NCBI GenBank assembly: GCA_947629175.1
Contig: CANRCT010000033.1
Span: forward strand, 1-33,984
DNA: 33,984 nucleotides
Direction of reading: 5' to 3'
From: an uncultured Muribaculaceae bacterium
Lineage (GTDB): Bacteria; Bacteroidota; Bacteroidia; Bacteroidales; Muribaculaceae
Part shown: piece after piece, positions 3,906-10,767 of the stretch
How positions within the stretch are numbered: the first letter of the stretch is position 1
Layout: the number at the start of each line of letters is the position of its first letter
Program-made: the position numbers and the translations under genes
Notes under the pieces: model-generated
What the model was told of the DNA's origin: nothing
The model's input: only the letters and a program-made list of their open reading frames with translations
Databases searched by the model: none

Positions 3906-5282
3906 ATGGCACAGAAACCATCGATACCCAAGGGCACGCGCGACTTCGGTCACGAAGAGATGGCCCGCCGCAACTACATATTCGACACGATCAGGAGCGT
4001 ATTCCGTCTCTACGGATTCAGCCAGATCGAGACTCCGGCCATGGAGAACCTGTCTACACTGATGGGCAAATATGGCGAAGAGGGCGACAAGCTGCTCTTC
4101 AAGATACTCAACTCCGGCGACTGGCTGCGTGGCGCCGACCGTGCCATGATCGACGCCGGCGACTACGTGCACCTGACTTCGAAAGTGAGCGAAAAGGGGT
4201 TGAGGTATGACCTGACGGTGCCGTTCGCACGCTTCGTGGTGCAGCACCGCGACGAGCTGACACTGCCGTTCAAGCGCTTCCAGATCCAGCCGGTGTGGCG
4301 CGCCGACCGTCCGCAGAAAGGGCGTTACAGAGAGTTTTACCAGTGCGACGCCGACATAGTGGGCAGCGATTCGCTCGTCAACGAGATCGAACTGCTGCAG
4401 CTCGTCGACGAAGTGTTCGCACGCCTGGGCATACGCATAACCATCAAGCTCAACAACCGCAAGGTGCTCGCCGGCATAGCCGAGATGATCGGAGCCCCCA
4501 AAAAGCTGACCGACATCACCGTGGCTATCGACAAGATCGACAAGATCGGCCTCGACAAGGTGAAGGATGAACTGGCCGAGCGCGGTCTGCCTGCAGAGGC
4601 AATAGCCCGGCTCGAACCGGTGCTCGGCATCAGCGGCGACACGGCCGCAAGGCTCGCGGCGCTGAAGGATATCCTCGCAGGCAACGAGACCGGACTGCTC
4701 GGAGTGGCCGAGCTGCAGACCGTCATCGACGGCGCCGCGCGCCTGGGCATGCGCGCCGAAGTGGAGCTTGACGCATCGCTCGCCCGCGGTCTCAACTACT
4801 ATACCGGCACCATCATCGAAGTGAAGGCACGCGACGTGGAGATAGGCTCCATCACCGGCGGAGGACGCTACGACAACCTGACCGGAGTCTTCGGACTGCC
4901 CGGCCTCTCAGGTGTGGGCATCTCGTTCGGCGCCGACCGTATCTACGACGTGCTCAATCAGCTCGACCTCTATCCCGCTGAAGCCACTGCTGCTACCGAC
5001 GTGATGTTCGCCAACTTCGGCGAAGCCGAGTCGATGGCGGCCATGGCCATGATGAAGGAGCTGCGCAAGGCAGGCATCAAGTCGGAAATCTATCCCGACG
5101 CTGCCAAAATGAAAAAGCAGATGGGCTACGCCGACTCCCGCGGCATACCGTTTGTGGCAATCGTGGGCGAGAACGAGATGGCCGAGGGCAAAATGATGCT
5201 CAAGGACATGCGCGATGGTTCTCAGGCGCTCCTCATACCGGCCGAAGCCATAACCATTATCAGCAAAAAACAACTTTTTTAA
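3906..5282 (+). CDS. hisS: Histidyl-tRNA synthetase
   Basis: Class II aminoacyl-tRNA synthetase that charges tRNA-His; 458 residues. Motif 2 and its loop are visible as [17 protein letters not shown] (132-148). The histidine-binding motif is [10 protein letters not shown], near residues 292-301. Motif 3 begins [10 protein letters not shown], followed by [16 protein letters not shown]. The last 95 or so residues are the anticodon-binding domain. An insertion around residues 68-95 ([20 protein letters not shown]) makes it somewhat longer than the E. coli enzyme. It lies 5 nt after valS. Its 3' end holds a weak A/T-only inverted repeat (CTTTTTT, AAAT, AAAAAAG) but no clear GC-stem terminator before the next promoter. 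Confidence 0.97.
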
Positions 5283-5293
5283 ATAAAAAAGGA

Positions 5294-5322
5294 TTGCAAA
5301 AGATAAATTTTATATATCTTTG
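5294..5322 (+). promoter_or_regulatory. Promoter of the aromatic amino acid operon
   Basis: TTG at 5294-5296 and TATCTTTG at 5315-5322, 18 nt apart, fit the Bacteroidota -33/-7 pattern TTG...TAnnTTTG. Initiation would fall near 5327-5330, about 18 nt before the leader peptide ATG at 5347. It separates the aromatic operon from hisS. Confidence 0.75.
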
Positions 5323-5346
5323 CATCATCAAACAACAATCCGAAAG

Positions 5347-5421
5347 ATGAACCACCGTTTTTACGCATACTTTTTTTATTACTTTTATTCTGGCCGAATA
5401 GAAGGGATTCAGCATGCGTGA
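5347..5421 (+). CDS. Phe/Tyr-rich attenuation leader peptide
   Basis: A 24-codon ORF beginning ATG at 5347 and ending TGA at 5419-5421. Codons 5-14 read FYAYFFYYFY, so nine of ten consecutive codons are Phe or Tyr (four Phe and five Tyr). After this run come SGRIEG and a short tail. The ORF starts about 20 nt after the predicted transcription start, and an intrinsic terminator follows 50 nt after its stop. Codons 20-22 contain the sequence GGGATTC (5404-5410), which is complementary to the 5' side of that terminator. These are the features of a ribosome-stalling leader that senses charged tRNA-Phe and tRNA-Tyr. The downstream operon makes exactly those two amino acids. Composition and position are direct observations; the regulatory role is inferred. 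Confidence 0.88.
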   Translation: MNHRFYAYFFYYFYSGRIEGIQHA

Positions 5422-5477
5422 AGAGATCAGGACATCGACTACACGACGATTGATAAAGACTACGATAACAGAATCCC
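5404..5477 (+). promoter_or_regulatory. Antiterminator pairing of the attenuator
   Basis: GGGATTC at 5404-5410 is the exact reverse complement of GAATCCC at 5471-5477, giving a 7-bp helix that excludes the terminator stem. The left arm begins 15 nt after the last Tyr codon of the leader run. A ribosome stalled on the Phe/Tyr codons would leave it free, whereas one that reaches the stop codon at 5419 would cover it. A small alternative pairing, GAAT (5396-5399) with ATTC (5407-5410), could act as a competing upstream hairpin. Confidence 0.75.
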
Positions 5478-5506
5478 GACAGCCAAAAGCTTTCGGGATT
5501 TTTTTT
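5472..5506 (+). terminator. Attenuator: intrinsic terminator before pheA
   Basis: AATCCCGA (5472-5479) pairs with TCGGGATT (5493-5500). An inner AGC/GCT pairing (5481-5483 with 5489-5491) closes a CAAAA loop, and six further Ts follow at 5501-5506. It lies 22 nt before the pheA start codon and about 140 nt after the promoter, so it can only act as a conditional terminator for the operon. Confidence 0.9.
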
Positions 5507-5527
5507 GACAGAACCAGTAAACGAAAT

Positions 5528-6388
5528 ATGGATACCCAACGCAAGAAAAGAGTGACGATACAGGGCGTGGCCGGATGCTATCACGACGCTGCCGCCCGCG
5601 GGTATTTCGGCGACGAACAGATCGACACGCTGCCGTGCGACTCGTTTGTCGAAATGTTCGACGCCCTCGCGGCCGATGCCTCACTCATAGGCATCCTGGC
5701 CATCGAGAACACCATAGCCGGCGCCCTCCTGCAGAACCACGAGCTGCTCCGCAAAAGCGACATGTGCATCGTCGGCGAATACAAGATGAGGATATCCCAC
5801 GTGCTCGCAGCACTGCCCGGACAGACCATTGACGAGCTCACTGAGGTCAACTCCCATCCGATGGCCCTGATGCAGTGCGAGCAATATCTCCGCCGTCACC
5901 CGAATCTGAAGATGATAGAGAAATTCGACACCGCAGGAAGCGCCCGGGAGATAGCCGAAAACAACCTTACGGGCCATGCGGCCGTTTGCGGCGAATACGC
6001 CGCCGGGCTTTACGGCCTCAACGTGCTCGAACGCTCCATCGAGACCAACAAACGCAACTTCACCCGTTTCCTCATCATCGCCGATCCGCTTTTAGGTCAG
6101 GAACTGCTCCGGGGGAAAGGCGAGCCCGACAAGGCCTCGATAGCCTTCACTCTCCCCCACACCCACGGCGCGCTGTCGAAGGTACTGACCATATTCTCGT
6201 TCTACGACATGAACCTGTCGAAAATACAGTCCATGCCGATCATCGGCCGCGAATGGGAATACCGCTTCTACGTCGACCTGACTTTCGAAAGCCGACTCCG
6301 CTTCCGCCAGGCCATCGAGGCAGTGCGCCCGCTCATCAACGATCTGAAGATACTCGGAGAATACAACGAATGCAAAAACCAACTCTGA
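5528..6388 (+). CDS. pheA: Prephenate dehydratase
   Basis: Converts prephenate to phenylpyruvate, the committed step to phenylalanine; 286 residues, monofunctional (no chorismate mutase domain). The catalytic domain spans about residues 8-190 and ends in the conserved TRF motif, T179-R180-F181. An ACT domain follows, with the GAL element at 214-216. The usual Phe-binding motif ESRP is replaced by QSMP (234-237), so feedback inhibition by Phe may be altered. The ATG at 5528 is chosen because an in-frame ATG at 5414 would lie upstream of the terminator and overlap the leader ORF. First gene of a four-gene operon, with 5 nt to the aminotransferase. Expression is expected to be controlled by the attenuator. 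Confidence 0.95.
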   Translation: MDTQRKKRVTIQGVAGCYHDAAARGYFGDEQIDTLPCDSFVEMFDALAADASLIGILAIENTIAGALLQNHELLRKSDMCIVGEYKMRISHVLAALPGQTIDELTEVNSHPMALMQCEQYLRRHPNLKMIEKFDTAGSAREIAENNLTGHAAVCGEYAAGLYGLNVLERSIETNKRNFTRFLIIADPLLGQELLRGKGEPDKASIAFTLPHTHGALSKVLTIFSFYDMNLSKIQSMPIIGREWEYRFYVDLTFESRLRFRQAIEAVRPLINDLKILGEYNECKNQL

Positions 6389-6393
6389 CCGTC

Positions 6394-7572
6394 ATGACAA
6401 AAGAGATAAAGCCCGCCACAAGAGTTAGCGAGGTCAAAGAGTACTATTTTTCCAAGAAACTGCGCGAAGTGGCCAGGCTGAACGCCGAGGGGCGCGACAT
6501 AATCTCCCTCGGCATCGGAGGCCCTGACCGGATGCCGGCCGACGAAGTGATCGACACCCTCTGCGCAGAGGCCCGCAAGGAGGGCAACCACAGCTATCAG
6601 TCCTATACCGGACTGCCGGCGCTGCGCAAGGCCTATGCCGACTTCTACCGGCGGTGGTATGGAGTCACGCTTAATCCCGACTATGAGATACTGCCTCTCA
6701 TAGGCAGCAAGGAGGGAATACTCCACATATCGCTCGCACTGCTCAACCCCGGCGACGGCGTGCTCGTGCCGAATCCCGGCTACCCCACTTACACCTCCGT
6801 CAGCCGTCTGGCCCAGGCCGAAACTTTCCACTACGACCTCACCGAAAAAAACGGCTGGTATCCCGACTTCGACCAGCTCGAAAAGATGCCTCTCGACCGC
6901 ATAAAGCTTATGTGGGTCAACTATCCCCATATGCCGACCGGCACCCCGGCCACAATGGAACTGTTCGAGCGTCTGGTCGACTTCGGACGCAGCCACGGCA
7001 TAGTCATAGCCCACGACAACCCCTATAGCTTCATCCTCAACGACAAGCCTATGAGCCTGCTGCAGGTGGAAGGAGCCAAGGATGTGGCCATAGAGCTCAA
7101 CTCCATGAGCAAGAGCCACAACATGGCCGGATGGCGAATGGGCATGCTTGCATCCAACCCGACCATGATCGAATGGATACTGAAAGTGAAGTCGAATATC
7201 GACAGCGGCCAGTTCCGCCCGATGATGCTCGCAGCCGCCAGAGGGCTCGAAGCCGATGCGTCATGGTACAGGAGCGTAAACGAAACATACGCGCGACGCC
7301 GCGTAATCGCCGAAGAGATCATGACCGCGCTCGGATGCACGTTCGACCCCTCCCAGCGAGGCCTCTTCCTCTGGGGCCGGATAGCCGACAGCGAGAGCGG
7401 AAGCGAAGCCGTGGCCGACCGCGCTCTTTACGAAGCCCGTGTATTCGTCACCCCCGGATTCATATTCGGCAGCAACGGCGACCGCTACATACGCATATCG
7501 CTCTGCGCCACCGAAGAGAAAATGCGCGAGGCCCTCGACAGAATAAGAGAATCACAGATAAACAACAAATAA
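6394..7572 (+). CDS. Class I/II aminotransferase, probably aromatic
   Basis: PLP-dependent fold-type I aminotransferase; 392 residues. The Schiff-base lysine is K240 in NSMSKSHNMAGWRMG, and the substrate carboxylate-binding Arg is R367 in RYIRIS. The sequence resembles the group that includes aspartate and LL-diaminopimelate aminotransferases (SLGIGGPD near the N-terminus, NPGYPTY in the middle). Lying between prephenate dehydratase and DAHP synthase/chorismate mutase, it most likely transaminates phenylpyruvate and 4-hydroxyphenylpyruvate, the last step to Phe and Tyr. This role is inferred from context; a broader aspartate or branched-chain specificity cannot be excluded. An in-frame ATG at 6370, overlapping pheA, is a possible alternative start. 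Confidence 0.93.
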   Translation: MTKEIKPATRVSEVKEYYFSKKLREVARLNAEGRDIISLGIGGPDRMPADEVIDTLCAEARKEGNHSYQSYTGLPALRKAYADFYRRWYGVTLNPDYEILPLIGSKEGILHISLALLNPGDGVLVPNPGYPTYTSVSRLAQAETFHYDLTEKNGWYPDFDQLEKMPLDRIKLMWVNYPHMPTGTPATMELFERLVDFGRSHGIVIAHDNPYSFILNDKPMSLLQVEGAKDVAIELNSMSKSHNMAGWRMGMLASNPTMIEWILKVKSNIDSGQFRPMMLAAARGLEADASWYRSVNETYARRRVIAEEIMTALGCTFDPSQRGLFLWGRIADSESGSEAVADRALYEARVFVTPGFIFGSNGDRYIRISLCATEEKMREALDRIRESQINNK

Positions 7573-7603
7573 TTTCAATAACACCAACGTCAGTAACAAA
7601 ACA

Positions 7604-8686
7604 ATGGAAGATCTTCAACCCATCACTTTCGAGGGCGTCGACCCGGAGCGTCCGCTCGTCATAGCAGGCCCATGCAGCGCCGAAACCGAAGAGCAGGTGC
7701 TCTGCACCGCCAACGAACTTGCAGCCAACGGCATCAGAATATTCCGCGCAGGGATATGGAAACCCCGCACTAAACCGGGCGGATTTGAAGGCGTAGGCGC
7801 CCCCGGCCTCGAATGGCTGAAAAAAGTCAAGGAGACCACCGGCATGTACACCGCCACAGAAGTGGCCACACGTCAGCATGTCAACGACGCTCTTGCCGCC
7901 GGAGTCGATATACTCTGGATCGGAGCCCGCACATCGGCCAATCCTTTCGCCATGCAGGAGATCGCCGACACTCTGCAGGAATCGGGCCGCACCGACGTGA
8001 CCGTTCTTGTAAAGAACCCCGTCAATCCCGACATCGAGCTATGGATAGGTGCCATGCAGCGCATCTACAATGCAGGCATACGCCGGCTGGGAGCCATCCA
8101 CCGCGGATTCAGCACCTATGGTAAACATCTTTACCGCAACATGCCCCAGTGGCACATTCCTACCGAACTGCGTCTGCGCTTCCCCTCGCTTCCTATCATC
8201 ATCGATCCGTCGCACATCGGAGGCAAGCGCGAGCTGATCGCCCCGCTGTCGCAGCAGGCACTCGACATGGGCTTCAACGGACTGATGATTGAGAGCCACT
8301 GCGATCCCGATAAGGCTTGGAGCGACGCCTCGCAGCAGGTGACTCCCGAGATACTCAACTTCATCCTCAACACCCTCGTGGTGCGCGATTCGCGCCAGTC
8401 AACCGAAAACCTGACCCTTCTGCGCCAGCAGATCGACCAGATCGACAACGACCTGCTTGAGACTCTCTCGAAACGAATGAGAGTGTCGCGTGAGATCGGA
8501 CAATACAAGAAGGAGCACCGCATGCCAGTAGTCCAGGCCAACCGCTACAACGACGTCATCCGCACCCGTGTGAAACTCGGTCAGGAAATGGGCATGGACG
8601 AGAACTTCATGCGCACCATCCTTCTCGCCATCCACGACGAGTCGGTGCGCCAGCAGATTGAGGTGTTGAACGACCGCGCCCGCTGA
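7604..8686 (+). CDS. Bifunctional DAHP synthase / chorismate mutase
   Basis: 360 residues in two domains. Residues 1 to about 260 are a type I DAHP synthase of the KDO8P-synthase-like group: GPCSAETEEQV near residue 23, then KPRTKPGGFEGVG, IHRGFSTYGKHLYRN and IDPSHIGGKR. It condenses PEP with erythrose 4-phosphate, the entry step of the shikimate pathway. From about residue 268 a type II (AroQ) chorismate mutase domain follows: LRQQIDQIDNDLLETLSKRM, then IGQYKKE. This converts chorismate to prephenate, the substrate of both pheA and tyrA in the same operon. Fusion may let aromatic products bound at the mutase domain inhibit the synthase, as known for related fusions. The gap from the aminotransferase is 31 nt. 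Confidence 0.95.
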   Translation: MEDLQPITFEGVDPERPLVIAGPCSAETEEQVLCTANELAANGIRIFRAGIWKPRTKPGGFEGVGAPGLEWLKKVKETTGMYTATEVATRQHVNDALAAGVDILWIGARTSANPFAMQEIADTLQESGRTDVTVLVKNPVNPDIELWIGAMQRIYNAGIRRLGAIHRGFSTYGKHLYRNMPQWHIPTELRLRFPSLPIIIDPSHIGGKRELIAPLSQQALDMGFNGLMIESHCDPDKAWSDASQQVTPEILNFILNTLVVRDSRQSTENLTLLRQQIDQIDNDLLETLSKRMRVSREIGQYKKEHRMPVVQANRYNDVIRTRVKLGQEMGMDENFMRTILLAIHDESVRQQIEVLNDRAR

Positions 8687-8692
8687 GCCGCC

Positions 8693-9466
8693 ATGAGAAT
8701 ACTCATAATGGGAGCAGGCAAGATGGGATCGTTTTTCAGCGACCTGCTCTCGTTCACTCATGATGTGGCCGTCTACGATCCCGATCCGAAGCGGCTCCGC
8801 TTCACCTACAATGCCCAGCGTTTCCAGGATCTCGGCGAGGTCGACGACTTTCATCCCGAGATGGTGATCAACGCCGCTACGGTAAAATACACCCTCGACG
8901 CTTTCAGGGCCGTGCTGCCCCATCTCGATCCGACCTGCATACTGTCCGACATCTCTTCGGTGAAGACCGGTCTGCCGGAGTTTTATGCGACGTGCGGTCA
9001 TCCGTTCGTCTCCACTCACCCGATGTTCGGCCCCACGTTCGCATCACTGAGCAATCTCGCCAATGAGAACGCTATCATAATCAGCGAAGGCGACCACCTC
9101 GGCCGTGTATTCTTCAAGGATCTCTACGGGCAGCTCGGGCTGCATATCGAGGAATACACATTCGAGGAACATGACCGGACGATAGCCTACTCGCTCTCGA
9201 TACCGTTTGCATCCACTCTCGTATTCGCATCGGTAATGAAACACCAGTCGGCGCCCGGCACAACATTCAAGCGCCATATGGCCATAGCCCGCGGACTGAT
9301 GTCGGAGGACGACTATCTGTTGAGTGAGATCCTGTTCAATCCCAACACTCCGTCGCAGCTTGAGCAAATCGTAGAGCGGCTGGCCACTCTGAAAGATATC
9401 GTGGAACGCCACGATTCCGACGCGATGAAAGCCTATCTCGAACAGGCTCGTCAGAATCTCAAATAA
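8693..9466 (+). CDS. tyrA: Prephenate dehydrogenase
   Basis: NAD(P)-dependent oxidative decarboxylation of prephenate to 4-hydroxyphenylpyruvate, for tyrosine; 257 residues. The Rossmann dinucleotide motif is GAGKMG at residues 7-12. The catalytic-region motif HPMFGP lies at about residue 107. A helical dimerisation domain forms the C-terminal half. There is no ACT or chorismate mutase domain, so the protein is close to the minimal form of the family. Last gene of the aromatic operon: 6 nt after the previous stop and directly before a strong terminator. Confidence 0.95.
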   Translation: MRILIMGAGKMGSFFSDLLSFTHDVAVYDPDPKRLRFTYNAQRFQDLGEVDDFHPEMVINAATVKYTLDAFRAVLPHLDPTCILSDISSVKTGLPEFYATCGHPFVSTHPMFGPTFASLSNLANENAIIISEGDHLGRVFFKDLYGQLGLHIEEYTFEEHDRTIAYSLSIPFASTLVFASVMKHQSAPGTTFKRHMAIARGLMSEDDYLLSEILFNPNTPSQLEQIVERLATLKDIVERHDSDAMKAYLEQARQNLK

Positions 9467-9681: not shown

Positions 9682-10767
9682 ATGAAAAATCTGACATCAG
9701 TCTCGGGACTTATAGCTTCTGTAATATTAAGCGCAGGCCTTACTTCCTGTGGCAGCTCATCCGACAGCGGTCACAGCGATACCGACAGCGTAGCAACAGT
9801 GCTTCCCTCCAAAATAGCCGAGGTAAAGACCGTGAAGTTGGCTCCGAAAATGTTCAGCCACGAAACGATGAGCAACGGCAAAGTCAGCGCACATGATTTC
9901 GCCGACCTCAATTTCAGCGCCTCCGACGCCATTATCGACAGGATTCTGGTCAAGAACGGACAGCATGTCAAAAAGGGGCAGCCCATAGCCTCGCTCGACA
10001 AGTTCAAGCTTGAAAACACACTCAAGCAGAACCTCAACGACCTTGAGAAAGCGCGTCTGGAACTTGCCGACGTATTGATTGGACAGGGATATGACCCTGA
10101 GAAACCGGGCGAAGTGCCGGCCGAAGTGATGAAACTCGCACGTCTCCGCAGCGGACTCGACCAGGCCGAGACTGTGTTGCAGCAGACCCGGCGCGACATA
10201 GATAACGCTACGCTGACCGCACCGTTCGACGGCGTCGTGGCCAATCTTTTCCAGAAAGTCCACAACCGCCCCGACAATTCCAAGCCATTCTGCCGTATTG
10301 TCGCCTCCGGAGGCATGGACGTGGAGTTCAAGATCCTTGAGAGCGAACTGTCGGTGATACGTCCGGGGGACAAAGTGACCGTAACTTCATTCTCCACCGG
10401 CGAGACATCCGACGGCACTGTCAGCGAAATCAATCCTGTGGTCAACGAGGACGGACTGGTGACGGTGCGCGCGTCTGTCAGCGGCTCCGGCCTGTTTGAC
10501 GGCATGAACGTGAAGGTAAGCGTGAAGCGCGATCTCGAGAACGCCTTAGTAGTGCCGAAGACCGCGGTCGTGCTCCGAACGGGCAAACAGGTAGTGTTCA
10601 CCCACGAAAACGGCAAGGCTATGTGGAACTACGTGACCACCGGCCTTGAGAACATGAGCGAATATATAATCACCGACGGTCTGACCGAAGGGATGGAGGT
10701 AATCTACGACGGCAACGTCAACCTGGCCCATGAGTCGCCCGTGACGGTAGTCAATGACGACAAGTAA
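9682..10767 (+). CDS. RND efflux periplasmic adaptor lipoprotein
   Basis: Membrane-fusion (HlyD/AcrA-type) subunit that would bridge an inner-membrane RND transporter and a TolC-like channel; 361 residues. The signal peptide ends in a lipobox LTSC with Cys23, so it is probably anchored as a lipoprotein. The first lipoyl half is IDRILVKNGQHVKKGQPIASLD. A coiled-coil hairpin covers about residues 113-175, followed by the second half (ATLTAPFDGVVANLF) and beta-barrel and membrane-proximal domains. It is the first gene of an eight-gene run ending at 23204. The 134 nt upstream (9548-9681) must hold the promoter; TACTTTTA at 9634-9641 is a weak -7 candidate without a clear -33 box, so I do not mark it separately. 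Confidence 0.92.
   Translation: MKNLTSVSGLIASVILSAGLTSCGSSSDSGHSDTDSVATVLPSKIAEVKTVKLAPKMFSHETMSNGKVSAHDFADLNFSASDAIIDRILVKNGQHVKKGQPIASLDKFKLENTLKQNLNDLEKARLELADVLIGQGYDPEKPGEVPAEVMKLARLRSGLDQAETVLQQTRRDIDNATLTAPFDGVVANLFQKVHNRPDNSKPFCRIVASGGMDVEFKILESELSVIRPGDKVTVTSFSTGETSDGTVSEINPVVNEDGLVTVRASVSGSGLFDGMNVKVSVKRDLENALVVPKTAVVLRTGKQVVFTHENGKAMWNYVTTGLENMSEYIITDGLTEGMEVIYDGNVNLAHESPVTVVNDDK

Follow-up and report, generated by a model that had tools for sequence, protein, structure and literature searches.

The 5' region of the pheA operon of an uncultured Muribaculaceae bacterium very probably encodes a classical ribosome-mediated transcription attenuator which, judging from its sequence, would sense both Phe-tRNA and Tyr-tRNA. 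The region lies in a 33,984-nucleotide stretch of DNA (hereafter, the window), and its elements are listed in Table 1. A first-pass annotation of the window had proposed that a 24-codon ORF with nine Phe/Tyr codons in a run of ten, a GGGATTC motif within it that is complementary to a downstream GAATCCC, and an intrinsic terminator requiring the same bases together form a leader-peptide attenuator. Direct reading confirmed the ORF and its codon run, the two heptamers proved to be exact reverse complements, and the terminator (5471-5506) indeed shares one strand (R3) with the antiterminator. When the 2.94 Mb genome was searched for a run of seven consecutive Phe/Tyr codons, one match was obtained, i.e., the leader itself; the reversed pattern, serving as a control, also gave one match.

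Table 1. Features of the leader region and the flanking genes (window coordinates).
Feature	Position	Strand	Remarks
hisS	3906-5282		upstream of the leader; follows valS in the upstream valS-hisS transcript
Promoter-like boxes	TTG 5294-5296 and TATCTTTG 5315-5322	+	fit the Bacteroidota TTG/TAnnTTTG type
Leader peptide ORF, 24 codons, MNHRFYAYFFYYFYSGRIEGIQHA	5347-5421 (ATG 5347, TGA 5419-5421)	+	read directly; coding constraint in relatives
Possible pause hairpin	5358-5368 with 5414-5424	+	helix in the minimum-energy fold
Control codons, FYAYFFYYFY	5359-5388	+	nine Phe/Tyr in ten; read directly
Antiterminator 5' strand (R2), GGGATTC	5404-5410	+	within the leader ORF
Shared strand (R3), GAATCCC	5471-5477	+	partner of R2 or of the terminator 3' arm (R4)
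Intrinsic terminator	hairpin 5471-5501, eight T 5499-5506	+	-15.5 kcal/mol
pheA, prephenate dehydratase (PDT)	5528-6388	+	
Class I/II aminotransferase	6391-7572	+	start approximate
DAHP synthase fused to chorismate mutase	7604-8686	+	
tyrA, prephenate dehydrogenase	8693-9466	+	

The content claimed for the operon (pheA, the aminotransferase, DAHP synthase/chorismate mutase and tyrA) held as well, all four genes being placed within 5528-9466. An RND/HlyD-type periplasmic adaptor is encoded ~215 nt past tyrA (9682-10767), followed by long ORFs on the same strand as the adaptor. Bacteroidota promoters follow the consensus TTG/TAnnTTTG, and for the promoter of this type that had been postulated upstream of the leader, promoter-like TTG and TATCTTTG boxes were confirmed; of 86 loci, 62 have a TAnnTTTG box in the 110 nt that precede their first leader, compared with 5.9 expected from mononucleotide shuffles. 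A simple promoter and terminator scan of positions 4500-6500 included neither the leader promoter nor the leader terminator among its sites, possibly because it seeks sigma-70 boxes and short-loop stems. The sites it did report, two terminator-like and three promoter-like, were all on the opposite strand, and the terminators were not above shuffles.

In the model that we infer from these elements, transcription would begin at ~5329 and a ribosome would translate the leader. When Phe and Tyr are ample, this ribosome would pass the Phe/Tyr codons and reach the stop codon at 5419, covering R2, upon which R3 would pair with R4, the terminator (5471-5501 and the T tract) would form, and the polymerase would halt at 5506, before pheA. 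If charged tRNA for either amino acid runs low, the ribosome would stall within 5359-5388 with its leading edge just short of R2, leaving R2 to pair with R3 as soon as the latter emerges. No terminator would then form, and the polymerase would enter pheA-aminotransferase-DAHP synthase/chorismate mutase-tyrA, making expression of the operon responsive to the supply of both amino acids.

Fold computations were in line with part of this scheme. The leader region folds 4.0 sd below its dinucleotide shuffles, with 0 of 200 shuffles as good. R2 starts 18 nt past the start of the last Tyr codon (15 nt by the rule of the spacing survey described below) and falls within the footprint of a ribosome at the stop codon. 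With the ribosome stalled (last Tyr codon in the A site) and the 3' arm of the terminator not yet made, the computed probability of R2:R3 pairing was 0.99-1.0. For a ribosome that has reached the stop codon, the computation keeps R2 from pairing by design, and the terminator is formed. Two results count against the scheme. R2 also pairs with R3 in a partial transcript carrying no ribosome at all, and at equilibrium the terminator wins in the full transcript, both without a ribosome and with a stalled one (R2:R3 probability 0.0), indicating that switching must be kinetic, decided during transcription, as in known attenuators. Taken singly, the antiterminator of the window is weak: its R2:R3 pairing comprises 7 bp (-12.5 kcal/mol), and 6.5% of shuffled R2 sequences equalled it (p 0.065). 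It is the relatives that make the predicted pairing convincing.

A comparison of relatives had been proposed as a check of the attenuator, and across them the F/Y-rich ORF and the terminator are conserved, as is the R2:R3 pairing, and both helices covary. We sampled 139 pheA loci at the level of genus, family, order, class and phylum, searching 400 nt upstream of each for a module, defined as a short ORF holding six or more F/Y codons in ten and a terminator after the ORF (found by a fold-based search that requires a T tract); three loci (L067, L011 and L016) were dropped for having too short an upstream sequence. Leader and terminator were found before pheA in the own genome (1/1), in 16 of 27 loci of the same genus or family, in 44 of 48 from other families of the order, in 25 of 40 elsewhere in the class and, outside it, in 1 of 20 from the rest of the phylum (L172). 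With 20 dinucleotide shuffles per region, the corresponding expectations (own, genus/family, order, class, phylum) were 0.0, 0.0, 0.0, 0.05 and 0.0 for leader and terminator, and 0.0, 0.15, 0.9, 0.75 and 0.25 for a leader alone; leader-like ORFs on the reverse strand occurred in 0, 0, 2, 1 and 2 loci, respectively. A set of named genomes gave a similar picture: of 80 loci, 77 had enough upstream sequence (L241, L256 and L258 were dropped), 67 of these carried a leader, and 65 a leader with a terminator, including Bacteroides fragilis S82 (L240), B. nordii (L254), Parabacteroides distasonis (L190), Tannerella and Barnesiella (L184). The named set overlaps the unnamed loci: in L184/L073, L251/L061, L199/L278 and L225/L317, the two contigs are of the same length and probably come from one genome. 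Taken together, these counts indicate that the putative Phe/Tyr attenuator is common across the class Bacteroidia.

The expected conservation stood for most loci of the order, but not for part of the window's own genus. Among the same genus and family, 19 of 27 loci had a leader, three of which (L115, L116 and L117) had terminators that the search rule did not find, and eight had no leader at the threshold. One of these eight, L030, has a leader that falls under the 6-in-10 threshold and was hence uncounted. In L020, L021, L024, L025, L026, L113 and L114, where hisS lies upstream, no leader was found, suggesting that the attenuator was lost or replaced there; L026 retains the promoter-like box and the hairpin, with the leader absent. 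Fifteen of the 40 class loci lacked the module. The leader was absent from eight class loci that hold an aminotransferase and tyrA (L123, L124, L128, L129, L134, L135, L141 and L146), and in these no DAHP synthase was detected near pheA, L141 being covered for 3.1 kb only. Five other class loci (L121, L131, L152, L153 and L159) have a DAHP synthase yet no leader, such that any link between DAHP synthase and leader is loose. Class pheA loci with neither a leader nor a detected linked gene were L085, L120, L217, L282, L284, L298 and L299, and in L106 the sole linked-gene match was a distant aminotransferase.

Attenuation of this kind depends on translation of the leader, and Bacteroidota are said to initiate translation largely without Shine-Dalgarno pairing. 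The leaders conform to this, as the first-pass annotation had anticipated: a Shine-Dalgarno-like tetramer lies upstream of 2 of 97 leaders and is absent from the other 95, while 94 of the 97 start with ATG, in an A-rich context. When 33 pairs of closely related leaders were compared, the single-base changes in the codons of the F/Y core were 16 synonymous, 8 between Phe and Tyr and 3 to another residue; at a further 12 core codons the difference spanned two or three bases, and in 10 of these a residue other than Phe or Tyr was involved. Of the single-base changes beyond the core, 40 were synonymous and 61 nonsynonymous. F/Y codons occupied 1400 of 1809 core positions in frame, compared with 488 and 447 in the other two frames. 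Given that the leaders were picked by their F/Y content, the codon-change and frame counts are biased, and they support translation rather than measure it. With this in mind, the leader ORF looks translated, its codons appearing to be under coding constraint.

To return to the pairing, R2:R3 was assessed in 79 of 95 modules, 16 same-genus/family modules being omitted as near-copies. Duplexes between a locus's own R2 and R3 averaged -15.1 kcal/mol, compared with -9.6 kcal/mol for R3 with the R2 of other loci (Wilcoxon p 3e-14), and in 69 of the 79 modules the pairing was better than with shuffled R2 at p<=0.05. Covariation was scored in a plain MAFFT alignment of 55 of 57 stretches, L066 and L068 having been removed for hairpins unlike the others; the alignment excluded class loci, skipped L003, L006, L007 and L009 as near-copies, and represented tandem loci by their upstream module. 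In these 55 sequences the terminator helix was 95.8% paired, with 62 double-change cells as opposed to 18.1 in shuffles, and it exceeded all 500 shuffles on all five measures. The antiterminator helix was 78.0% paired, with 34 double-change cells as opposed to 14.7, and exceeded 500 of 500 shuffles on three of the five measures (pairing, double-change cells and covariation score). On the remaining two it did not rise above shuffles: 6 pairs showed a double change, a count reached by 75 of 500 shuffles, and there were 17 further pair types, a count reached by 93 of 500. Sliding the antiterminator by 1-3 columns lowered the pairing, the double-change cells and the score, and some slides equalled the other two counts. 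Both helices covary, the antiterminator less clearly.

The spacing between control codons and antiterminator points the same way. The footprint of a ribosome extends ~13 nt ahead of its stall codon. Work on Salmonella places the ribosome front 12-15 nt from the P site (PMC3641672). When R2 was sought freely from leader start to terminator in 96 modules, R2 was found to begin a median of 14 nt (quartiles 12-16) past the first base of the last F/Y codon, i.e., where the front of a ribosome stalled at that codon would be. A stalled ribosome would leave R2 accessible, and one at the stop would cover it, in 59 of 96 modules, compared with 21.4 expected from random placement; the other 37 missed at least one of the two limits. 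The upstream ORF of L081, whose hairpin lies inside the leader, was omitted from both the pairing and the spacing tests.

The composition of the leaders tends to follow that of the operons. Where an aminotransferase, DAHP synthase or tyrA lies downstream of pheA, Tyr was present in the core of all 111 leaders, compared with 1 of 8 leaders of stand-alone pheA genes (no linked gene detected in at least 3 kb), the remaining 7 having none (Fisher p 1.4e-10, counting relatives as independent). In the first sample alone, leaders without Tyr numbered 0 of 82 for linked operons and 3 of 4 for stand-alone genes, and in the named set, whose genomes are partly shared, 0 of 66 and 1 of 1. On the tree, these data reduce to four independent contrasts, all four of which agree with the trend under a Tyr-poor rule (sign test p 0.125); under a zero-Tyr rule, three agree and one shows no difference (p 0.25). 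A wider sample supplied four further leaders of stand-alone pheA, all in clades already represented, leaving the sign test at four pairs; its 40 loci were chosen by hand, in part for a seemingly distant DAHP synthase, from 183 of 392 genomes with a pheA match. L099 and L154 have leaders that are linked yet Tyr-poor. Two stand-alone loci have leaders below the 6-in-10 threshold, uncounted in these statistics: that of L285 is Phe only, and that of L283, Phe-rich with one Tyr, counts against the strict rule. The trend fits, and does not prove, a leader that would read both amino acids where the operon makes both.

Ten of the 88 order and class loci were found to carry two F/Y leaders, each with its own terminator (L065, L071, L075, L076, L083, L092, L099, L103, L144 and L148; the second leader of L083, which overlaps its own terminator, was assigned visually). 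No tandem modules occurred in the 27 same-genus/family loci. Six more were seen in the wider sample (L286, L296, L307, L308, L309 and L311), bringing the total to 16 loci, although 6 of 40 is no frequency, since those loci were hand-picked. Six of the first ten loci have two modules that each beat shuffled R2 in the R2:R3 test (L071, L075, L076, L092, L103 and L144); at least one module does not in L065, L099 and L148, and L083 was tested for its first module only. On a quick tree of 157 rows, the tandem state changed 13 times, 11 of them forced by well-supported branches, suggesting that it was gained or lost many times, scattered over the tree. Attenuators placed in series and reading one signal would be expected to sharpen the response.

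We weighed the attenuator against three other readings of the same elements. The hairpin might be nothing more than the 3' terminator of the valS-hisS transcript, the F/Y ORF being fortuitous; hisS does end at 5282, 64 nt ahead of the leader ORF, and pheA sits close behind hisS in some genomes of the same genus. We consider this very unlikely, given that the module is kept in many loci with no hisS upstream within the stretch fetched, that hisS and the leader are separated by a conserved promoter-like box, and that R2 covaries with the terminator arm. The coding constraint on the leader codons would also suit an ORF encoding a functional small hydrophobic peptide, with the hairpin acting as a constitutive terminator that keeps short and long transcripts in constant proportion. 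Such a peptide, however, would hardly tolerate the interchange of Phe and Tyr (8 of 27 single-base changes) or the wide divergence of the leaders between families outside the F/Y run, nor would it call for a ribosome-sized gap between the last F/Y codon and R2 or for Tyr codons that tend to follow operon content, and we regard it as extremely improbable.

A further reading retains ribosome-dependent control but has it act on pheA translation or on Rho access, the hairpin being a by-product. In several loci the terminator ends at most 10 nt from the pheA start (as projected from that of the window), such that the choice of hairpin could also affect initiation. Against this stands a long T tract that hardly varies across the aligned modules, though its presence is not independent evidence, as the T tract belongs to the search rule; we give this reading very little credence. 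As far as sequence decides, then, conservation, covariation, coding constraint and the relation of Tyr to operon content support the leader-peptide attenuator that the first-pass annotation had put forward.

On a broader scale, we lean slightly towards an aromatic attenuator that was already present in an ancestor of Bacteroidia, was retuned by codon change alone, and was repeatedly doubled in series for a steeper response. If so, Tyr codons would be kept in operons that combine pheA with tyrA and DAHP synthase and lost where pheA stands alone, and serial modules would multiply two read-through probabilities, giving a steeper response than a single attenuator. These findings would support control by coupled transcription and translation in a phylum with little Shine-Dalgarno use, where a ribosome must load on the leader before the polymerase clears the terminator, roughly 150 nt further. 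The leader may thereby offer a compact, testable reporter of transcription-translation coupling in gut Bacteroidales. Control of Phe and Tyr synthesis would become predictable from sequence in many genera, and the natural pairs (single and tandem, Phe-only and Phe plus Tyr) allow one to ask how attenuators shift in specificity and steepness. As a separate observation, His-rich short ORFs lie on the hisG strand in the Bacteroidales loci L262 (two), L267, L268, L270, L271, L274 and L277; at the same threshold none was found in the hisG locus of the window's own genome (L276).

None of the Rfam 15 covariance models, the enteric Phe leader included, matched the window or 11 related loci at gathering; at E<=10, positions 5280-5540 drew only six unrelated families, all below gathering, and no T-box riboswitch match was obtained in the window, in 5280-5540 or in the 11 related loci. 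Likewise, a search of mostly open papers, most of them judged by their listing, found no Phe/Tyr leader before pheA in Bacteroidales. Work by Lopatovskaya et al. (2010) reportedly treats attenuation across bacteria and may cover Bacteroidetes. A passage of PMC2965389 states that, before the Firmicutes case presented there, no leader-peptide system was known outside Proteobacteria and Actinobacteria, ermC aside. Another study describes strong clues for leader-peptide attenuation before amino-acid operons in Flavobacterium psychrophilum, together with a structured 5' element before pheA that is conserved in other Flavobacteriaceae genera and has no Rfam match (PMC9723704). This element probably belongs to the same family as the Bacteroidia leader; the section of that paper on 5' cis-regulatory RNAs gives no leader sequence, Phe/Tyr reading or Bacteroidales. 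Short ORFs with Phe and Tyr codons were also proposed as regulators of shikimate genes, following a search of five genomes (PMC6429828); its passages name the alphaproteobacterium HIMB5, Clostridium novyi and B. cicadellinicola and also mention Arcobacter sp. L, without assigning the uORFs to any one of them. The novelty implied by the first-pass annotation therefore holds in part: a mixed Phe/Tyr leader before a combined operon is real, but in view of these two precedents it is less new than suggested. Leader-peptide-like sORFs are described in B. thetaiotaomicron as well, in passages that do not name pheA (PMC7366714).

The pheA motif of Actinobacteria and the Leu/phe leader of Lactococcus lactis (RF01743; both in PMC2864571), which are candidate or established cis-regulatory RNAs, are tied to phenylalanine by name, occur in other phyla, and have no Rfam match here. 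The same source lists the Bacteroid-trp motif (RF01692), a candidate cis-regulatory RNA in Bacteroidetes whose link to trp we take from its name; it was absent from the matches obtained for the window at gathering and for 5280-5540 at E<=10. For the tandem state, a parallel exists in Salmonella mgtCBR, where two leader ORFs and two attenuators in series sense ATP and proline (PMC3641672). As described there, the mgtCBR stem-loops are unlike intrinsic terminators, whereas the tandem modules seen here are both F/Y-rich, each with an intrinsic terminator.

The mechanism itself is classical and already known. In the enteric pheA attenuator, the control codons of the E. coli pheL leader are Phe only. 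Like the leader described here, enteric pheL is a short ORF with a run of control codons, followed by mutually exclusive antiterminator and terminator structures and by pheA; here, in contrast, Phe and Tyr codons are mixed, and the operon also holds DAHP synthase and tyrA. What is added is how widely the module occurs in the class, evidence from covariation and spacing, a relation between Tyr codons and operon content, and the repeated tandem state, of which the tandem modules, in 16 loci with at least 11 gains or losses, are the less expected part. The enteric ilv and thr leaders are multivalent, one leader reading several amino acids of a branched pathway, and the same multi-amino-acid logic would apply here, with different amino acids.
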